Source: a virus
Strand: one strand, 5' to 3'
IMG/VR virus record: IMGVR_UViG_3300032313_001465
Span: 84,582-148,581 of that record
DNA: 64,000 nucleotides
This document shows positions 23,879 through 38,780 of the stretch, piece by piece (the first letter of the stretch is position 1; each line of letters begins with the position of its first letter). The position numbers and the translations under genes were made by a program. The notes below the pieces were generated by a model that made no database searches, was not told the origin of the DNA, and saw nothing but the letters and a program-made list of their open reading frames with translations.

Positions 23879-24141
23879 TGAAACCATATACTGACGTTTT
23901 AACAACGGAAAATACAATTATTAGGGAGTTTGGTGATAACATAGACCCCGTTGAATTAAAATGGCATATGGACTCTTCTTCCCGCCACGTTACCATTTTA
24001 GAGGGTAAAGGATGGAAATATCAAGAAGATAATAAATTACCTTTGGAACTTAACGAAGGGGATTGTATATTTATACCAAAACAAACATTTCACCGTATTT
24101 ATAAAGGAACAACCCCATTAAAAATAAAAATTAAACAATGA
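23878..24141 (+). CDS. Small cupin-fold protein, 87 aa
   Basis: A single cupin domain: ELKWHMDSSSRHVTILEGKG contains H30 and H37 near the first metal motif, and LNEGDCIFIPKQTFHRIY carries the second motif with PxxxxH. It has no leader peptide, unlike both neighbours, so it may act in the cytoplasm. Metal and substrate are unknown. It overlaps the next gene by four bases. Confidence 0.68.
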   Translation: MKPYTDVLTTENTIIREFGDNIDPVELKWHMDSSSRHVTILEGKGWKYQEDNKLPLELNEGDCIFIPKQTFHRIYKGTTPLKIKIKQ

Positions 24142-24428
24142 AAAAACCAGAATTAAAGCAAATTATTAAAGAAGAAATACAAAAGATATTAAGTGAACAG
24201 CAAAAACGTATGCAAAAGCTTGCAGGTATTAACGAAGATAACACATTTAGTGACAATTACACAGTTAGTAATGAACAATATAAATTGATGGATAGTTATG
24301 TAAATCAACGTGCACTCCGTGATTTTCTAAATGCCGCTGAAAACATGATGGAAGATTTTCATGAAGCAGGATTTCCGGCAAGAGATGCATTTTATTGGTT
24401 TTATACTAAGCTAACTGCAAATATTTAG
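24138..24428 (+). CDS. Small protein with a composite class A plus class C leader, 96 aa
   Basis: MKKPELKQIIKEEIQKILSE is a class A leader and is followed directly by QQKRMQKLAGINE, the class C sequence, so both types occur in one protein. Sites LSE and INE could be cut in turn. The last 60 residues are helical (LRDFLNAAENMMEDFHEAGF). This gene links the two leader classes and supports a shared function. Body function unknown. Confidence 0.6.
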   Translation: MKKPELKQIIKEEIQKILSEQQKRMQKLAGINEDNTFSDNYTVSNEQYKLMDSYVNQRALRDFLNAAENMMEDFHEAGFPARDAFYWFYTKLTANI

Positions 24429-24463: not shown

Positions 24464-24745
24464 ATGGCAAAATTAAACAAACAATTCCGACGTATGCAAA
24501 AGCTTGCAGGAATTCTTAACGAAAACGAGGAAATAGATAATTTTATTGATGTATTAACAGATATGGCTATTAAAGCTAACATCATTAAAGACAAAGATAT
24601 AAATAAAGACGAAGTAATAGATGCATTATATGATACATGGGAAGATATGGGATTTGATGATTATGAAGAAACAGGACAGGGGATTAGTACATCAGATTAT
24701 AATAGATCTTTAGAAATATTTACCAATTATATTAAAGATAAATAA
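24464..24745 (+). CDS. Small acidic protein with class C leader, 93 aa
   Basis: MAKLNKQFRRMQKLAGILNE is a class C leader with LNE at its end; FQKLAGII at the scaffold C-terminus is the closest match. The body is acidic and helical (DVLTDMAIKANIIKDKDINK). No catalytic residues are evident. It is the last gene before a GC-rich structured region. Confidence 0.58.
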   Translation: MAKLNKQFRRMQKLAGILNENEEIDNFIDVLTDMAIKANIIKDKDINKDEVIDALYDTWEDMGFDDYEETGQGISTSDYNRSLEIFTNYIKDK

Positions 24746-27116: not shown

Positions 27117-28016
27117 ATGAAGAAATCTGATCTTAAAAAACATATTAAAGAAGAAATACTTTCGATCCTAAAAGAAGCATCAACAGCATTAGTAACTACT
27201 AAAGGAGGAACAAAACCTGTATCATTCTCATCCCCTTCAGAATTAAGCGCTCTTAAAACGGATGCTAACGTATCATCAATCACAACAACAGCAGGGCAAA
27301 AGATTAAAGAAACTAAAAAAGAAATGAAAGAAGATAAATTCGATGATAAAATAACAAATCTTGAAAAATATACTTATACTGTAAATGGGAAAAAAGTAAC
27401 TCCGGAAATTGGTTATTTTGATCATTCATTAAAAGCTATGATATCCACTCCAAGAAGTGGTGATGAGTATTTTGATTATGAATTTTATAGAATTGGCGAA
27501 CCTGATGAAAGTGGTAATATTGAATTATCTCCTGAAAAAGGTAAAAAAGGAATGTATACTGAAGAAATGGATACTTCAGGATTTAAATCTGGTAGAGAAT
27601 TTATTAATATAAAATTACAAAAATATCCTAAAGCTGTAGCTAAAATTAATCAATTAATTAATATGATTGGTGAAGATAAATTCACAATGGAAATGGCTAA
27701 ATGGTTGTTTGATTTCTTTAATAATGCTTCATACGAAAGTCCAGTTAACGAAGCAAAAATTGAATCTGATTTTTTTGAACGAGAACCTAAATCTAAAGAT
27801 ATTGAGAAAGGAGAAGGCATAATAGCTAAAACTACAAAGCTTTTAAAATTTCAAAAAGAATTAAAAACATTATCTAAAGATATGCAAGATTTAGCTGCTG
27901 AATATAGAGAAGCTGAAGGATCTGATAAAGATGAAATTTTACGAACATTAAAAGTTAAAACTGCTGCTAAAAAGGAATTAGAGAAAAAAATAGAACAACT
28001 TGAAAGATATGTATAG
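27117..28016 (+). CDS. Internal-type protein with class A leader, 299 aa
   Basis: MKKSDLKKHIKEEILSILKE is a class A leader ending in LKE. A Thr/Ser-rich linker and an alpha/beta domain follow (YTYTVNGKKVTPEIGYFDHS, about residues 84-104). Residues 200-299 include another NEAK-type site and a long charged coiled coil (KKELEKKIEQLERY at the end). It immediately precedes the head module and overlaps the next start. Probably a capsid-internal protein; function unknown. Confidence 0.55.
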   Translation: MKKSDLKKHIKEEILSILKEASTALVTTKGGTKPVSFSSPSELSALKTDANVSSITTTAGQKIKETKKEMKEDKFDDKITNLEKYTYTVNGKKVTPEIGYFDHSLKAMISTPRSGDEYFDYEFYRIGEPDESGNIELSPEKGKKGMYTEEMDTSGFKSGREFINIKLQKYPKAVAKINQLINMIGEDKFTMEMAKWLFDFFNNASYESPVNEAKIESDFFEREPKSKDIEKGEGIIAKTTKLLKFQKELKTLSKDMQDLAAEYREAEGSDKDEILRTLKVKTAAKKELEKKIEQLERYV

Positions 28017-30266: not shown

Positions 30267-32168
30267 ATGGCAGATAAAAGTGTATTTACAAGACTAAAAA
30301 GGTTATTTTCTACGGATGTAATCATCAGAAACCAAGGTGGGAATAACATTCGTGTAATAGATGTTAATCACATCCAAACTACTGGAGAAATTGAAACTAA
30401 TTCACTTCAAGATAGATTTAATCGAATATATAGTAGCACAAACCCATCATCTTTATATGGAGCTCAATTTAATCTTAACTATCAATATTTAAGAACACAA
30501 ATGTATTCTGAATATGATGTTATGGATACTGATGCTATTATAGCCTCTGCTCTAGATATTATTGCAGATGAAAGCACATTAAAAAATGAACAAGGAGAAG
30601 TATTACAAATTGTAAGTAGTGATGAAGATGTTCAAAAAATATTATATAACTTATTTTATGATGTATTAAATATAGAATTTAATATGTGGTCATGGGTAAG
30701 ACAAATGTGTAAATATGGTGACTTTTTCTTAAAATTAGAGATAGCTGATAAATTTGGAGTATATAATGTTATCCCATATACTGCATATCATATTGAAAGA
30801 CAAGAAGGATACGATAAAGCAAATCCTGCTTCTATAAGATATGCATTTTCACCTGATGGTTTTGCTGGGGGTAGTTATGGTTACTATAACTTACCAAATC
30901 AACCTACTAATTCAAATCGAATTTATTTTGATAACTATGAGATGGCTCATTTCAGACTAATCTCAGATGTAAATTATTTACCTTACGGAAGAGCATATAT
31001 TGAACCAGCGCGTAAATTATATAAACAATACTCTTTAATGGAAGATAGCATGCTTATCCATAGAATAGTTAGAGCGCCGGAAAAACGTGTATTTTATATT
31101 AATATTGGAGGCATTCCACCTAATGAAGTAGAAGCATTTATGCAAAAAACAATTTCTGCTATGAAACGTACTCCATATATTGATCCTGAAACTGGAGAAT
31201 ATAATTTGAAGTATAATATGCAGAATATGATGGAAGATTTCTATATTCCAGTTCGTGGGAATGATGCAACTACTAAAATTGATACTACAAAAGGTTTAGA
31301 GTATGATGGTATTAAGGATGTTGAGTATTTAAGAGATAAAATGTTTGCTGCCTTAAAAGTTCCAAAAGCTTTTATGGGTTATGAGAAAGATTTAACTGGA
31401 AAAGCTACATTAGCAGCCGAAGATATTAGATTTGCTCGTACAATTGATAGAATACAGAGAATAATATTATCTGAACTTGAAAAAATTGCTTTAATCCATT
31501 TATATACACAAGGATATGATGGTGAACAGTTAACTAATTTTAAATTATCTCTTACTACTCCTTCAATTATATACGATCAAGAACGTTTAGCTCTTTTAAA
31601 AGAAAAAGTAGATTTAGCTGTAACTATTTTCGAAAACGATGTTTTACCATCTGATTGGGTTTACACTAACGTATTCCATTTAAGTGAAAGTGAATTTGGT
31701 GAAATGAGAGATCTAAATGTGGAAGACGCAAAACGTAGATTTAGACTAAAACAAATATCAGAAGAAGGAAATGATCCATTAGAAACAGGTAAATCATATG
31801 GTACACCTCATGATTTAGCAACACTATATGGCACAGGAAGATATGATAATACAGCTGATGTTCCTGCTGGATATAATGAAAAAGCTACTTTAGGTCGTCC
31901 TGTAGAAAAAAGTTCAAATATAAATACTCAAGGCAATGCTTTTGGTAGAGATAGATTGGGGGTTGCTGCTATGAAAAAAGATGATCAACCATCATTTGGT
32001 AAAACCAATTATAAAGGAGGTTCACCTCTAGCATTAGAAGGAACCAAAAAATCTTATTTTCAAAATAGAAAATTATTAGAGAATATGAAAGTAGAACGCA
32101 AAGTAATGATTTTTGAATCAGACAAAAACAAAGAGTCATTACTAGATGATTCTCAGTTACTACCTTAA
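30267..32168 (+). CDS. Portal protein (T4 gp20-like)
   Basis: It forms the dodecameric portal at the special head vertex. The core starts with YSEYDVMDTDAIIASALDII (about residues 77-96), typical of T4-type portals, followed by WSWVRQMCKYGDFFLKLEI and a crown-like C-terminal region rich in Lys and Gly. Length 633 is longer than T4 gp20 (524), with an extended low-complexity tail (about residues 520-633). It lies between terminase and the protease/core genes, the canonical order. Confidence 0.9.
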   Translation: MADKSVFTRLKRLFSTDVIIRNQGGNNIRVIDVNHIQTTGEIETNSLQDRFNRIYSSTNPSSLYGAQFNLNYQYLRTQMYSEYDVMDTDAIIASALDIIADESTLKNEQGEVLQIVSSDEDVQKILYNLFYDVLNIEFNMWSWVRQMCKYGDFFLKLEIADKFGVYNVIPYTAYHIERQEGYDKANPASIRYAFSPDGFAGGSYGYYNLPNQPTNSNRIYFDNYEMAHFRLISDVNYLPYGRAYIEPARKLYKQYSLMEDSMLIHRIVRAPEKRVFYINIGGIPPNEVEAFMQKTISAMKRTPYIDPETGEYNLKYNMQNMMEDFYIPVRGNDATTKIDTTKGLEYDGIKDVEYLRDKMFAALKVPKAFMGYEKDLTGKATLAAEDIRFARTIDRIQRIILSELEKIALIHLYTQGYDGEQLTNFKLSLTTPSIIYDQERLALLKEKVDLAVTIFENDVLPSDWVYTNVFHLSESEFGEMRDLNVEDAKRRFRLKQISEEGNDPLETGKSYGTPHDLATLYGTGRYDNTADVPAGYNEKATLGRPVEKSSNINTQGNAFGRDRLGVAAMKKDDQPSFGKTNYKGGSPLALEGTKKSYFQNRKLLENMKVERKVMIFESDKNKESLLDDSQLLP

Positions 32169-32186: not shown

Positions 32187-32198
32187 AAAAACACATTG

Positions 32199-33047
32199 AT
32201 GAAACATAATAGGACAAAAAATACAGGTATACTATTTGAATTATTAACAAGACAGATTACTTCAGATATTCTATCAGGTAAAGATTCACCTGCATCAAAA
32301 ATAATCAAATCTCATTTTGTTAATACTGAATTAGGGAAAGAATACAAGTTATATGAGTCTATTTTTAAAAATAACTTTGTTAGCGAAGCTAAAGCTAATA
32401 TGGTTATAAACACGGTATTAGAATCTTCTAAAAAGTTAAATCGTACAACTTTAAGAAAACAAAAATACAATTTAATTAAGGAAATAAAAGACCACTATAA
32501 CTTAGACGAATTTTTTAAAACTAAAGTTTCAAACTACAAAGAATTAGCATCTATATATGTTTTATTTGAAGTACATAGTGATCCAACATATTCAAATCCA
32601 CAAATTACTATAAATAATAAAACTACTCTTTTAGAATATTTAACAAAACCCAAAAGGGAAAAAGAACACACCCAAACCATTATTGAGGAGTTTCAAACAT
32701 ACGACAAAGATTTACGTATTTTAACTTACAAGATTTTACTTGATAAATTTAATACAAAACATGCTCATTTAAATGAGAACCAAAAATTAGTACTCAAAGA
32801 ATTTATCAACTCAATAGATTCAGCTCCAAAATTGATGAGATTTTATAATGATAAGATAAACGAAATCAAATCTGAAATAAAAACTCAAATCAACAAAACA
32901 GAAGATGCTGTTGTTAAAATTAAATTAAAGGAAGTAAGTAAACTACTAACTGAAGTTGATAAGAATCAAAAAGTTAAAACAAATAATTTAGTTGACTTAC
33001 TTCAATATTTTGAACTTTTAGAAGAATTAAAACATACTAATGGATAA
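32199..33047 (+). CDS. Head-module protein of unknown function, 282 aa
   Basis: The ATG at 32199 is preferred over the TTG at 32196. The protein is mostly helical: an N-terminal block (GILFELLTRQITSDILSG), a Lys-rich middle and a coiled C-terminal half (INEIKSEIKTQINKTEDAVV). Located between portal and protease, it sits where T4-type phages keep prohead core and head-assembly proteins. It overlaps the next gene by 8 bases. An assembly role is inferred from place. Confidence 0.55.
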   Translation: MKHNRTKNTGILFELLTRQITSDILSGKDSPASKIIKSHFVNTELGKEYKLYESIFKNNFVSEAKANMVINTVLESSKKLNRTTLRKQKYNLIKEIKDHYNLDEFFKTKVSNYKELASIYVLFEVHSDPTYSNPQITINNKTTLLEYLTKPKREKEHTQTIIEEFQTYDKDLRILTYKILLDKFNTKHAHLNENQKLVLKEFINSIDSAPKLMRFYNDKINEIKSEIKTQINKTEDAVVKIKLKEVSKLLTEVDKNQKVKTNNLVDLLQYFELLEELKHTNG

Positions 33048-33453
33048 TTTAAAAGGGAAAATTAAAAAGATATGTCAAGAATATCTTAAAAAACTAAAAG
33101 AAGAATCTACAACAGGTGGTGGAACAGCTAGTAGTGCCGGAATGACTACAGGTACTGGAGAACAATATGCTACACCATTTGCCTTTAATCCAAATAAAAA
33201 AGCTAAAGGTACAGCCAGTAATTACTACTATAAGTTAGGATATAAATTGGCACCTAACCAAGTAACTGAAATAGATAAATCTACATATGGAACCGGAAAT
33301 TTAGGACCGGGTCCAAAAGCAACTGAACGTGGAGTAGAAGATAATTATTATGTAAAGGCGTTTGGTTACAAAGTAGTTGATCGTAAAAAACAAGCAGACG
33401 CTTCTAAAGCTGTAGATTATAAAGATTTATGGGGAAAAACATATAAATATTAA
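33040..33453 (+). CDS. Small head protein with MCP-like segment after a cleavage site
   Basis: A leader-like basic helix (GKIKKICQEYLKKLKEE) ends in LKE at residues 19-21. The next residues contain TGGGT at 25-29 and GEQY at 40-43. The major capsid protein shows TGGGT (64-68) and GEQW (79-82) at the same spacing after its own probable cleavage site. The remainder is basic with NYYYKLGYKL. It may be a processed head protein that mimics or binds the capsid N-arm. Function unproven. Confidence 0.55.
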   Translation: MDNLKGKIKKICQEYLKKLKEESTTGGGTASSAGMTTGTGEQYATPFAFNPNKKAKGTASNYYYKLGYKLAPNQVTEIDKSTYGTGNLGPGPKATERGVEDNYYVKAFGYKVVDRKKQADASKAVDYKDLWGKTYKY

Positions 33454-33454
33454 T

Positions 33455-33694
33455 ATGTATAGATATAAATTAAAAGAAGAAACACCACAAACTCCTAAAC
33501 AATATCAACAAACCCGCTTAAACGGATTTGATGAAGTTATAGATTTAATAGGACAAATACAACCTCTTTTAAAAGAAGCTAGACAAAAAACGATAGAATA
33601 TTATAATGATAATCCTGAGTCGTATGATGTAGTATATGGTACTGATTTAATAAAAGATTACTTATTAGATATAACAAAAATATTAAAAAAATAA
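33455..33694 (+). CDS. Small helical head-module protein, 79 aa
   Basis: The N-terminus YRYKLKEETPQTP holds an LKE site within the first ten residues, followed by a helical domain (FDEVIDLIGQIQPLLKEARQ). Size and location resemble small prohead core proteins of T4-type phages (gp67/gp68 position), but sequence similarity cannot be judged here. It starts one base after the previous stop codon. Confidence 0.5.
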   Translation: MYRYKLKEETPQTPKQYQQTRLNGFDEVIDLIGQIQPLLKEARQKTIEYYNDNPESYDVVYGTDLIKDYLLDITKILKK

Positions 33695-33993: not shown

Positions 33994-35205
33994 ATGAAAA
34001 CATTACAAACACAATATAATCTTATTAAAGAAGGAAAAGGAAGTAAACATGTATTTTTAAAGGAAGCAAAAAGCTTATATCCTGACATGATTACTAATTT
34101 TTCAACTTTTGAACAAACTGAAAAAATTCTTAAAAATAGAGGAGTAATTAACGAAAATTTTGTTGGATTACAACCTATTAACGATTGGGAACCATCTCCA
34201 AAACAAGACTATGAAATAGCATTTAAAAAATTCTTATCTGAAGTAGAAGAAGAAAAAGTTAAAGCTGATACTAAAAAAGTGTCTAAATATGTAGAAGATA
34301 CTGATGCTCATAGTTTTGATAATAAAGATCGTAAAAATATTGATAATTTAAGTGGTCAAGAAGTACTTAATGGGTTTTATACCGAATTAAAAGCGCCTAA
34401 AAACGCAGATAAAACGAAAGACGAATTAATGGATATCGTTACTAAAAATCTATCAAAAGATCCGTTATACTACATTAAAAACGGCCAATTTGGAACTGAA
34501 GGAGTGGGATATACTGAAGACGCTCCAGGTTTAGGTAAGCCTAAAGAAGCAAAAGGTAAATATAAATCAAGTGGATATGGCGATTTAGATAATAAACAAA
34601 CAGCTCCAAAATCAAACGTTAAGGATTCAGGAAAAAGTGAATACAAAACTGGTATGCCTAAGAAAGTAAAAGAAATGGATATGAAAGCTCAATCTTCTAA
34701 AGGTGTACAAAAAATGGCTACTCCTGGTAAACCAAAAACTATAAAACTAAATGAAATAGGAATGTTTCATGATCCTATGGGATATAATAAAGGAGCAAAA
34801 TCTCAAAAGGAAGTAGCTCGTGATATATTAATGAATGCTGGATTGTCTGATGAAGAAATAAAAAAGTTCATTAGTGATAATATGTTTAAAAAAGGAAGAT
34901 TAGATGATTTAGCTAAAGAATATATTAAATCCCTTAAAGGACTAAATGAAAATCAAGAATCAAATACAGATGTATTAAAAGATTTAATATCAAGACATGA
35001 TTGGTACTTTGAAATGAGTGATGATAATAGAAAATATAAAGATGGTCAAGCATCTGAAAAGAAAATTATGGATTTAGTAAATAGAATGGGAGATGAAGGC
35101 AAAAAAATCTATAATTCAATGGCACCAAAAGATAGACAATTAAAAGAATCCGTAGTTGATAGAATAATAGAATCTATTCTTGAAAGACTTAAGAAAATTA
35201 AATAA
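33994..35205 (+). CDS. Prohead core-like protein with multiple cleavage sites, 403 aa
   Basis: The leader MKTLQTQYNLIKEGKG has IKE, and HVFLKEAK adds LKE. MKTLQ and the charged composition resemble T4 internal proteins, which begin MKTYQ. Residues 90-240 are very hydrophilic and Lys-rich, probably disordered (KPKEAKGKYKSSGYGD). The C-terminal 120 residues are helical with further LNE and LKE sites. It immediately precedes the protease. A core component or internal protein that is chopped during maturation is the best reading. Confidence 0.6.
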   Translation: MKTLQTQYNLIKEGKGSKHVFLKEAKSLYPDMITNFSTFEQTEKILKNRGVINENFVGLQPINDWEPSPKQDYEIAFKKFLSEVEEEKVKADTKKVSKYVEDTDAHSFDNKDRKNIDNLSGQEVLNGFYTELKAPKNADKTKDELMDIVTKNLSKDPLYYIKNGQFGTEGVGYTEDAPGLGKPKEAKGKYKSSGYGDLDNKQTAPKSNVKDSGKSEYKTGMPKKVKEMDMKAQSSKGVQKMATPGKPKTIKLNEIGMFHDPMGYNKGAKSQKEVARDILMNAGLSDEEIKKFISDNMFKKGRLDDLAKEYIKSLKGLNENQESNTDVLKDLISRHDWYFEMSDDNRKYKDGQASEKKIMDLVNRMGDEGKKIYNSMAPKDRQLKESVVDRIIESILERLKKIK

Positions 35206-35206
35206 A

Positions 35207-35827
35207 ATGAGTAAACAACTTCTAATAGAAACTAGACCATTCCAAGTTAATCCAATGCAACTTGTTGAAGGAACCAAAGGATCTTCAGGAAATCCATTAG
35301 TAGAAGGTATTTTAGCTACAGTAGAAGTAAAAAATGGAAATGGAAGATACTACAAGAGAGAGTTATGGGAAAGGGAATTAGAAACATACATGCAAAGTAT
35401 TAAAGAAAATCGTGCAACTGGAGAATTAGATCACCCCAGCACTGAAGTTATTAACTTAAAAAATGTATCTCATGCTATCAAAGATATTTGGTGGGATGGG
35501 GACAACATAATGGGTAAAATCGAAATTCTACCTACCCCATCAGGTAATATCCTAAAAGCACTTATAGAAAGCAATATCTCAGTAGGAGTATCTTCAAGAG
35601 GAATGGGTACTTTAAAACAAGAAGGCGATTTAATGGAAGTACAAGATGATTTTACATTAACATGTTGGGATTTTGTATCTACTCCTTCTAATCCAGGTAG
35701 CTGGATGCATCCAATAAATGGAATGATGAACGAAGGTTTACAATCAATTAAAACAAATAAGTATTCTAAAGTAAATTCTATTCTTTTTGAAATATTATGC
35801 GCTCACGGCACTTGCCCAATAATTTAA
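35207..35827 (+). CDS. Prohead core protease (T4 gp21-like, peptidase S77 family)
   Basis: The start at 35207 (MSKQLLIE) is chosen over an in-frame upstream codon that would overlap the previous gene by 26 bases. Catalytic motifs are GELDHPS (H76) and GVSSRGMG (S129 or S130, nucleophile), as in T4 gp21, with length 206 against 212. Its own N-terminus has LIE and LVE sites that fit self-processing. It should cut scaffold, capsid and leader peptides after (I/L)xE. A strong terminator follows. Confidence 0.88.
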   Translation: MSKQLLIETRPFQVNPMQLVEGTKGSSGNPLVEGILATVEVKNGNGRYYKRELWERELETYMQSIKENRATGELDHPSTEVINLKNVSHAIKDIWWDGDNIMGKIEILPTPSGNILKALIESNISVGVSSRGMGTLKQEGDLMEVQDDFTLTCWDFVSTPSNPGSWMHPINGMMNEGLQSIKTNKYSKVNSILFEILCAHGTCPII

Positions 35828-36028: not shown

Positions 36029-37096
36029 ATGTCAACAAACAGAGATTTATTAAAAGAAGCGATCGCTGACGCTAAAGCAGTAAAAGATACAGCAATTGCA
36101 AACGCAAAAATGGCTCTTGAAGAAGCATTTACTCCACATTTAAAATCTATGTTCTCCGCTAAAATCAACGAGATGGAAGAGGAAGATATGGATGAAGATA
36201 TGGATTACAATGACGAAAACATAGAGCAAAACGAAGCCAAAAAAAGAGGTGGAAAAAATGAAAAGGTTGTTAAAGAATTCTATTTAGAAGAAGACGAAAT
36301 CAATCTAGAAGAACTTATGTCTGAATTAGAAAAAGATGAAATGGAAGAAGTAATTAATGATCCTAGAGGTCCTAGAGCTCACGGTAATATAGCTTCTGGA
36401 GGAATGTCAGATGATGCTTTAATGGAAGCCGAAGAAGAAACTGAGGAAGAAATGAGTATTGAAGACATGTCTGAAGAAGATTTAAAAGATTTCATTGAAA
36501 GTGTAATTAAAGACATGGTTGAAGCTGGAGAAATTGAAGCTGGTTCTGAAGAAGAAGAAGAAGAAGAAGAAGAAGGTGAAAGTATTGATGAGTTCTTAAA
36601 CGAAATGGAAGGTGATGACCTTAAAGAATATGGTCAAGAACAACCTATATCAGTTGAAGACGCTTTATCAATTGTATGTAAATCATATCCAAACAATGCA
36701 TTATGTAAAGGAATGAAAGAAGGCAAAGGTGCAAAAGAAAAATCAAACAAAGAATTAGAAGAAGCATACAGAGTTATTAGATCAATGAAAAAAGACATTA
36801 ACGAAGTTAACTTACTAAACGCAAAATTACTTTACACCAATAAAATCTTCAGAGGTAAGAGCTTAACTGAATCTCAAAAGATTAATGTATTAGGTGCTTT
36901 TGACAGAGCAACAACCGCTAAAGAAGCTAAACTGGTATATGAATCATTGTTGAGTAATTTAAAAACACCAACAAGAAACATTCAAGAAAATTTAGGTAGA
37001 GCTTCCAAGTCAGTAACTGTTCCTCAAACAAAACAACCTATTATTGAATCAAATGATATGGTAGCAAGGTTCCAAAAATTAGCAGGTATTATTTAA
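36029..37096 (+). CDS. Prohead scaffold/core protein (T4 gp22-like)
   Basis: It is highly acidic, helical and just upstream of the capsid gene, as expected for the scaffold. Residues 1-50 contain DLLKEAIADAKAVKD, a heptad pattern; Glu runs lie near residues 150-190 (EEEEEEEEGESIDEF). The extreme C-terminus VARFQKLAGII matches the class C cargo leader (FRRMQKLAGII). This suggests that the cargo leader mimics a scaffold assembly element. Many LKE, INE and LME-type sites fit destruction by the protease. T4 gp22 is 269 residues; this one is 355. Confidence 0.82.
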   Translation: MSTNRDLLKEAIADAKAVKDTAIANAKMALEEAFTPHLKSMFSAKINEMEEEDMDEDMDYNDENIEQNEAKKRGGKNEKVVKEFYLEEDEINLEELMSELEKDEMEEVINDPRGPRAHGNIASGGMSDDALMEAEEETEEEMSIEDMSEEDLKDFIESVIKDMVEAGEIEAGSEEEEEEEEEGESIDEFLNEMEGDDLKEYGQEQPISVEDALSIVCKSYPNNALCKGMKEGKGAKEKSNKELEEAYRVIRSMKKDINEVNLLNAKLLYTNKIFRGKSLTESQKINVLGAFDRATTAKEAKLVYESLLSNLKTPTRNIQENLGRASKSVTVPQTKQPIIESNDMVARFQKLAGII

Positions 37097-37136: not shown

Positions 37137-38780
37137 ATGGCAAACATTCAAAACTTACTCGAATCAGCTAACCCGTATAAATCACTACAAGGTGATGCGG
37201 CTAGATTAGCAAACAAATGGAGTAGAACAGGATTGTTAGAAGGTATCAAAAATGAAACCGAGAAAAACAATATGTCTATGATCCTTGAAAACCAAGCAAA
37301 ACAATTGGTAATTGAAGCCTCTCAAACAGGAGGTGGTACTTCTTCAACAGCTACTTTTACAGCAGGTGTTGGTGAACAATGGGCAGGTGTAGCTCTTCCG
37401 TTAGTTCGTAAGATCTTCGGTCAAATTGCATCAAAAGAATTCGTTAGTGTTCAACCAATGAACTTACCTTCAGGTCTAGTGTTTTTCTTAGATTTCCAAT
37501 ATGGTACATCTAAAAATCCATTTACAGCAGGTAAATCAATGTATGGTGATACTGGTTCTAACTTTGGTAATACAAACACTGGTGGTCTATATGGTGCTGG
37601 TAGATTTGGTTACTCAGTTAACAACACTTCATCTATTCAGGCAGCAACAACTGGTTCAGCTACTTGGTCTACTTTTGATCTAGATAGTGATTATTCAGCT
37701 TCAGCAGCCGCTGGTTCTTGGAAAACATTAACTGTAACTTTATCATCTACAACTGATTTCTTAGCAGCTAGATCATTTACTCTTACTTCTGCTTCTAACA
37801 TCGCAGTAACAGATAACTTACCTGCATTTACTACTTTTAATACAGCAAATAACACTGTAACTTTCGTTATTACTGGTTCAAAAATAACTGATGCTTTTGC
37901 TCCAGCTGGTTCATTACCAAACGTTACTTGTTCATATTCATTACAACCAACTGATAAATACAGAGGTGATTTTGAAGATGCTAACACTGCTTTGAACGCA
38001 AACAACAGTTCAATTACAATTCCTCAAATCAACGTTCAAATGAGATCTGAAGCAATTGTTGCTAAAACAAGAAAATTAAAAGCAGCATGGACTCCGGAAT
38101 TCGCTCAAGATTTAAATGCCTACCATGCATTAGATGCTGAAGCTGAATTAACTAGCATTATGAGTGAATACATCAGTTTAGAAATTGACTTAGAAATTTT
38201 GGATATGTTGATCGAAACAGCAGCCGCAGGTACTGAATATTGGTCAGCAGTAAATAACCAAAGTTTAAGTGTAAGTGGTACTACTGTAACTAACAACCCA
38301 TCTTTAGGTTTCTTTAACACACAAGGACAATGGTTCCAAACTTTAGGAACTAAAATCCAAAAATTATCAAACGCAATTCACCAAAGAACATTAAGAGGTG
38401 GTGCAAACTTCATCGTTTGTTCTCCAACAGTAGCAACTATCTTGGAATCAATCCCAGGTTTTGCAAGTACTTCTGATGGTGAAGCTTCAAAAATGACTTA
38501 TGCATTTGGTGTACAAAAAATGGGTCAATTGAATGGTAGATATCAAGTATACAAAAATCCATACATGACAGAAAACACTATATTGATGGGTTACAGAGGT
38601 CAACAATTCTTGGAAACAGGTGCAGTTTTTGCTCCATATATTCCATTGATCATGACTCCGTTAGTGTACGATCCAAACACATTTACTCCTAACAAAGGTC
38701 TATTAACTAGATATGCAAAGAAAATGGTAAGACCTGAGTTTTATGCAAAGATCTTCGTTTCAGGTTTAAATACTCTATAG
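37137..38780 (+). CDS. Major capsid protein (T4 gp23-like, HK97 fold)
   Basis: MANIQNLLESANPYKSL starts an N-terminal delta domain of about 60 residues; the probable cleavage is after VIE60, just before ASQTGGGT, similar to T4 gp23 cut after residue 65. Recognisable core parts include RKIFGQIASKEFVSVQPMN, the E-loop region, and the C-terminal RYAKKMVRPEFYAKI. Length 547 is close to T4 gp23 (521). An A-rich leader and codon choice unlike neighbours (more GGT, GCT) fit very high expression. A terminator follows. Confidence 0.93.
   Translation: MANIQNLLESANPYKSLQGDAARLANKWSRTGLLEGIKNETEKNNMSMILENQAKQLVIEASQTGGGTSSTATFTAGVGEQWAGVALPLVRKIFGQIASKEFVSVQPMNLPSGLVFFLDFQYGTSKNPFTAGKSMYGDTGSNFGNTNTGGLYGAGRFGYSVNNTSSIQAATTGSATWSTFDLDSDYSASAAAGSWKTLTVTLSSTTDFLAARSFTLTSASNIAVTDNLPAFTTFNTANNTVTFVITGSKITDAFAPAGSLPNVTCSYSLQPTDKYRGDFEDANTALNANNSSITIPQINVQMRSEAIVAKTRKLKAAWTPEFAQDLNAYHALDAEAELTSIMSEYISLEIDLEILDMLIETAAAGTEYWSAVNNQSLSVSGTTVTNNPSLGFFNTQGQWFQTLGTKIQKLSNAIHQRTLRGGANFIVCSPTVATILESIPGFASTSDGEASKMTYAFGVQKMGQLNGRYQVYKNPYMTENTILMGYRGQQFLETGAVFAPYIPLIMTPLVYDPNTFTPNKGLLTRYAKKMVRPEFYAKIFVSGLNTL

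Follow-up and report, generated by a model that had tools for sequence, protein, structure and literature searches.

In bacteriophage T4, the protease takes 65 residues off the major capsid protein gp23, and the next stretch, residues 66–91, forms the N-fist, which contacts four subunits, bridges capsomers and helps form the Soc sites; it becomes ordered on expansion and, at positions facing the portal, is disordered (PMC9958956, PMC7136217). The gp21 protease also processes gp22, gp24 and gp67/68 (PMC9958956). A capsid targeting sequence of 10 residues is cut at L/I-X-E (PMC9026906, PMC10229621), and what the T4 internal proteins are known to have in common is the propeptide, ahead of the cut (PMC9026906, PMC3012670). 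Here we describe a small protein (sp) from the head gene cluster of a T4-like virus, in which the part held in common with the major capsid protein (MCP) lies behind the predicted cut.

Results

The head gene cluster and the segment shared by sp and MCP

The window is a 64,000-nucleotide part of a viral record of 148,581 bases (IMG/VR IMGVR_UViG_3300032313_001465), and its MCP shares 59% identity with that of Flavobacterium phage immuto and 50% with that of Microcystis phage Mel-JY01, the nearest among isolates. The head genes follow the order terminase, portal, 283-aa protein, sp, 79-aa protein, two ORFs, gp21-type protease, probable scaffold and gp23-type MCP (Table 1), and the start of sp overlaps the stop of the 283-aa ORF. 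Pfam and PHROG searches gave no confident family match for the probable scaffold. The record contains a single match to PF07068, a model that does detect T4 gp24, and no second Gp23-family gene; a separate gp24-type vertex protein thus seems to be absent from the record, which may be incomplete.

Table 1. Positions of the head-cluster features in the window, and of the corresponding proteins in T4 and S-CAM9.
Feature	Coordinates	Strand	Basis
Portal protein (gp20 type)	30267..32168	+	PHROG 213, E=4e-56
283-aa protein, conserved, 5' of sp; also in immuto and Mel-JY01	32196..33047	+	
sp, 137 aa, head-cluster protein with N-fist mimic	33040..33453	+	ORF; relatives in 80 viral loci
sp residues 1–21, predicted propeptide: amphipathic helix ending in gp21-type site LKE	33040..33102	+	AF2 helix 2–22
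sp residues 22–42, N-fist mimic segment ESTTGGGTASSAGMTTGTGEQ	33103..33165	+	Coupling tests; MCP is best match of all ORFs
Remainder of sp (YATPFAFNPNKKAKG..KLGYK..), net charge +8, conserved family core	33166..33450	+	Alignments
79-aa module, separate ORF here, start MYRYKLKE (another possible protease site)	33455..33694	+	
Prohead protease, gp21 type, Peptidase_S77	35180..35827	+	PF03420, E=4e-29
Probable scaffold, acidic	36029..37096	+	gp22 position and composition
Major capsid protein (MCP), gp23 type	37137..38780	+	PF07068, E=3e-78; Foldseek best matches T4 gp23
MCP residues 61–81, N-fist counterpart copied by sp	37317..37379	+	
T4 gp61.1	NC_000866.4 18966-19130 (L171 967-1131)	-	gp23 66–95 search
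S-CAM9 gp090, PHROG 3286, copy of own MCP post-cleavage arm	NC_031922.1 135836-136069 (L214 537-770)		

The initial annotation described a pair of motifs that recur at the same offset in sp and MCP, and this holds in every detail: LKE of sp ends at E21 and is followed by TGGGT at 25–29 and GEQY at 40–43, VIE of the MCP ends at E60 and is followed by TGGGT at 64–68 and GEQW at 79–82, and the offset is 15 residues in both proteins. The sequences around the predicted cuts read LKE21|ESTTGGGTASSAGMTTGTGEQY in sp and VIE60|ASQTGGGTSSTATFTAGVGEQW in the MCP. Since TGGGT begins four residues past the glutamate in both, their register to the predicted cut is identical. The pair of segments scores 65 as compared with 14.6 ± 7.4 for order-shuffled copies, none of 20,000 of which scored as high. 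When the whole 148.6-kb record was searched with a segment profile, which contains both sequences by construction, only two places were found at E≤10 (7.9e-21 and 2.8e-19); a search with sp alone also recovers the MCP (E=7e-4).

Aligned by landmarks, the MCP segment is placed like the T4 N-fist, between the cut and a ..LVRK/MVRR helix; the MCP model (pLDDT 55) is too poor to place the arm structurally, though Foldseek picked T4 gp23. The N-fist of gp23* resembles the sp segment in its position directly behind the protease cut, before a ..VRR/VRK helix, and in its similar length, but it belongs to the shell protein itself, whereas sp has no capsid fold behind the arm. The earlier suggestion that sp mimics an N-terminal arm is strongly supported, and can be sharpened to mimicry of the N-fist, the copied stretch being the post-cleavage stretch that forms this element in T4 gp23*.

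The segments of sp and MCP vary together

Among 77 pairs of sp and MCP, the segment is long in 42 and short in 35, with borders assigned by pattern matching and, where this failed, by manual correction. For the long form, pairs from the same genome score 53.6 versus 35.2 for permuted pairs (36 non-redundant pairs; z=10.7, p=5e-5), and the coupling persists when the set is collapsed to 12 clades at 70% MCP identity (z=6.6); the post-cleavage segment of sp co-varies with the N-fist of its own MCP. No ORF matches the sp segment better than the MCP at any of the 42 long loci, each with about 123 ORFs, and striking pairs are STIASNSGFTSGGEGEN with NEIASNSYYTSGGQGEN (L150) and ATSQGGASFSPGAGEQ with STNQGGATFSVGQGEQ (L160). 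Short-form sp shows no coupling to the MCP segment (p=0.14).

By region, the coupling amounts to z=5.3 at P1'–P4', 9.0 at P5'–P9', 6.8 in the middle and 6.6 over the last seven residues, and it is absent (z about 0) on both flanks, so that its limits are P1' and the segment end. This sharp stop of the similarity at the segment borders, the lack of Pfam and PHROG matches for sp and the single Gp23-family gene in the record argue against the proposal that sp is a minor capsid relative. We also rejected sp as a major or minor capsid protein of HK97 fold (PF07068), given that its model is of low confidence and mostly disordered. A capsid plug, the remaining role put forward for sp, is possible.

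Absence of the segment from one protein, or a different spacing, had been taken in advance to speak against the relationship. Both occur: sp of 35 among the 77 relatives is without the long segment, and the spacing is not constant across relatives. Segment length, where sp does have the segment, nevertheless follows that of the MCP, being equal in 61% of own pairs and in 28% of mismatched ones (p=0.0017 for the length difference by permutation). Length coupling is most clearly broken at two loci (L030, L031) where the MCP arm has gained an SQTAVN-type insertion and the sp arm is uninserted; a 12-genome clade with SQTAVN-type insertions has short-type sp only. A contig filed under a Maricaulis MAG (L170, NZMJ01000057.1) contains a head cluster of this phage type, its sp being of the long form (ELSATGTGATFTPGVGAQYATPYAF) and its MCP segment reading EQSSTGTGGSFSAGQGEQW; it is probably a mis-binned phage.

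Architecture and distribution of the sp family

The AF2 model of sp (pLDDT 59) comprises a helix at residues 2–22 followed by disorder (24–43 predicted disordered), with the remainder weakly predicted. The predicted propeptide ends in a protease motif of the L/I-X-E type (LKE21). The family core consists of [LIVM]xE, the segment, xTPxAF and a KLGYK-like part, and of 73 distinct relatives, 72 have [LIVM]xE directly in front of the segment, as compared with 28% at other glutamates; the glutamate served as anchor in this count, and the residue two before it did not. Codon differences between sp and close relatives are mostly synonymous (19 vs 5, 16 vs 6).

Relatives were found in 80 viral loci by a scan with sp, and a second scan, with an MCP alignment, gave another 80 loci; in the latter, an sp relative is present at every one of the 45 MCP loci that extend 6.9 kb or more upstream, one of the matches being weak (E=0.06). 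These relatives lie near portal and protease genes, at a median of 4.2 kb upstream of the MCP. A tblastn search of isolated phages with sp gave no match. An upstream domain is fused to sp in 53 of 135 loci, and a downstream module of the 79-aa type in 45 of 135. Of 32 distinct fusions, 22 have [LIVM]xE close to the downstream junction, and where the downstream protein is separate it mostly starts with such a site. As judged by these sites, sp with its fused modules looks like a core polyprotein that would be cut into pieces.

Like sp, the T4 internal proteins IPI–III and Alt are small and mostly basic, with an N-terminal propeptide ending in a gp21-type site, but the common part of sp is the mature arm behind the cut, which tracks the MCP. 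The genes for T4 gp67 and gp68, as that for sp, are located between portal and protease; when compared directly, by eye only, neither protein has a visibly similar segment, gp67 is acidic, and sp does not match the GP67 Pfam model.

Equivalents in T4 and cyanophages

We searched T4 with its own gp23 residues 66–95 and found, apart from gp23, one other place, gp61.1 (E=2.8e-4). This protein consists of MKTFKEFIKE, then DMVAGDSGGNPENISIGTTSGAVVNKGP and a lysine-rich tail, and its alignment to gp23 scores 82 versus 30 ± 4.6 for shuffles. The first ten residues, ending in IKE, would fit the 10-residue capsid targeting sequence. The same form, with a short start, an IKE-type site and a 28-residue N-fist copy, is present in 17 of 17 diverse phages, at a mean ungapped identity of 52% and with a length equal to that in gp23 in all but one. 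Own-pair coupling of gp61.1 and gp23 in the Straboviridae is weak (p=0.045) because gp23 varies little there. A clear late promoter was not seen upstream of T4 gp61.1.

gp61.1 is uncharacterised, widespread in Straboviridae and matched in about 1,400 phage records; annotations of its homologues read hypothetical, 'T4 gp23-like' or 'major capsid protein'. Our search of the open-access literature on gp61.1, the N-fist and capsid-arm mimicry returned nothing on function and no description of mimicry; the resemblance of gp61.1 to gp23 may have been noticed before. In long homologues (L176, L183, L184) the N-terminal domain of about 100 residues is elsewhere a separate PHROG of unknown function, phrog_18642.

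The gp61.1 family (PHROG 1823/2086) shares with sp a short propeptide or domain, [ILVM]xE, a copy of the own-capsid N-fist and a lysine-rich tail, but its gene adjoins primase gene 61 and the tail of T4 gp61.1, though lysine-rich, is net neutral. Homology of the two was not detectable by hhalign (probability below 1%), and sp matches no PHROG.

An equivalent search of cyanophage S-CAM9 with its own MCP arm found gp090 (63% over 24 residues, E=1.1e-5). In six cyanophages, two of them close relatives, own pairs win (exact p=0.003), and in S-T4 a unique YRGSG..DSG.PT occurs in both the small protein and the MCP. These PHROG 3286 proteins resemble sp in having a short helix, a copy of the own-MCP arm and a basic tail, but differ in arm sequence and gene position, and the cut motif of S-CAM9 is less clear (FREE). 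Own-arm searches gave no second match in pelagiphage HTVC008M, whose MCP arm is very short, or in immuto, which has a short-type sp. The lack of an hhalign match between sp and gp61.1 suggests more than one origin of the mimicry.

Some small proteins with the N-fist mimic are labelled 'major head/capsid protein', in S-SCSM1 (L225 340-525), Shigella phage KNP5 (H38), teqdroes (H48) and Roth04 (H65); the labels apparently come from the N-fist segment alone. The segment explains this annotation trap, in which mimic proteins are called 'major capsid protein' or 'gp23-like'.

Discussion

Because the copies change together across many phages and have T4 and cyanophage equivalents in unrelated genes, the pattern looks like selected mimicry of the capsid-locking arm. 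We propose, at about even chances, that sp is a protein of the prohead core that is cut by the protease and whose freed arm mimics the MCP N-fist. The N-terminal helix would act as a capsid-targeting propeptide by which sp is built into the core. The gp21-type protease is predicted to cut sp at the conserved site, behind LKE21, and the MCP correspondingly behind VIE60; both proteins would then start with a new N-terminal arm of one kind. In sequence, the sp arm is kept like that of its own MCP in both residues and length. On expansion, the sp arm may then dock in N-fist sockets between capsomers, most plausibly sockets without an MCP arm, for instance those surrounding the portal vertex, and would thereby seal or anchor them; the rest of sp, mostly basic, would lie inside near the DNA. 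With no separate gp24-type protein seen in the record, the portal vertex remains the common candidate. Alternatively, the sp arm might compete with the MCP arm during expansion. Evidently, the 35 short-segment relatives do without the mimic, which counts against the N-fist-mimic reading.

The coupling could instead reflect a shared partner, a third protein (scaffold, protease exosite or portal) that recognizes the segment before or during maturation, so that both copies track the partner and not a socket. In this main rival, which we consider rather unlikely, it is fitting that sp and MCP are both predicted prohead protease substrates, that their genes lie together and that coupling starts exactly at P1'; against it, the coupling spans about 20 residues past the cut and includes length. 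The segment is also not a general substrate tag, since no third protein in the record has it, and in T4, where gp22, gp24 and gp67/68 are gp21 substrates as well, the gp23 stretch is matched by gp61.1 only. Protease recognition alone was rejected, as the coupling runs that far and is confined to the prime side. A simple ancestral duplication whose copies drifted independently predicts no own-pair excess and was likewise discarded as sole cause.

If recurrent recombination or gene conversion copied the MCP segment into sp, where it would be a tolerated flexible spacer behind the cleavage site, shared codons would be expected in excess: of 484 codons for residues identical in the two segments, 252 are the same, against 228 ± 9 predicted by codon usage elsewhere in the MCP, within a test limited by synonymous saturation. 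With so slight an excess, the main cause is not a recent copying of DNA, although old or occasional copying of the segment is possible. Repeated changes of form also suit such copying, the MCP tree needing seven long/short switches, at least five of them forced by well-supported branches, but the borders follow the protein cut, and the same pattern recurs in three families of unrelated genes, located far from that for the MCP in T4 and S-CAM9; we regard this explanation as improbable. A decoy role, with the mimic protecting the capsid arm against recognition by a sensor or protease of the host, is more doubtful still: capsid proteins can trigger host defence (for example, PMC9712102), but a mimic behind a head-targeting propeptide and a protease site suits the prohead interior and not the cytoplasm. 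Chance or low-complexity convergence of linkers, which the Gly/Thr/Ser-rich composition of both segments might suggest, is refuted by the permutation tests and has next to no credibility; the mispairing and shuffling controls rule it out, with order-shuffled segments at 8.0 ± 1.2, mispaired genomes at 35.2 and own pairs at 53.6, and short-type sp lacks coupling.

More broadly, and with slightly less than even confidence, we suggest that T4-superfamily phages have repeatedly and independently evolved small head proteins (sp, gp61.1, PHROG 3286) that copy and follow the N-fist of the phage's own MCP to occupy its sockets, as a general part of capsid maturation or portal-vertex sealing. This gives gp61.1 and the cyanophage PHROG 3286 family a testable role, and points to an unrecognized player at the inter-capsomer lock formed on expansion in the best-studied large phage head.

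Elsewhere in the window, several small proteins (27117-28016, 24138-24428 and 24464-24745) begin with an amphipathic helix that ends in an LxE-like site (ILKEAS, ILSEQ) or have an RMQKLAGI motif, the latter resembling the scaffold end (FQKLAGII); from their sequences, these are possible further head-targeting signals.
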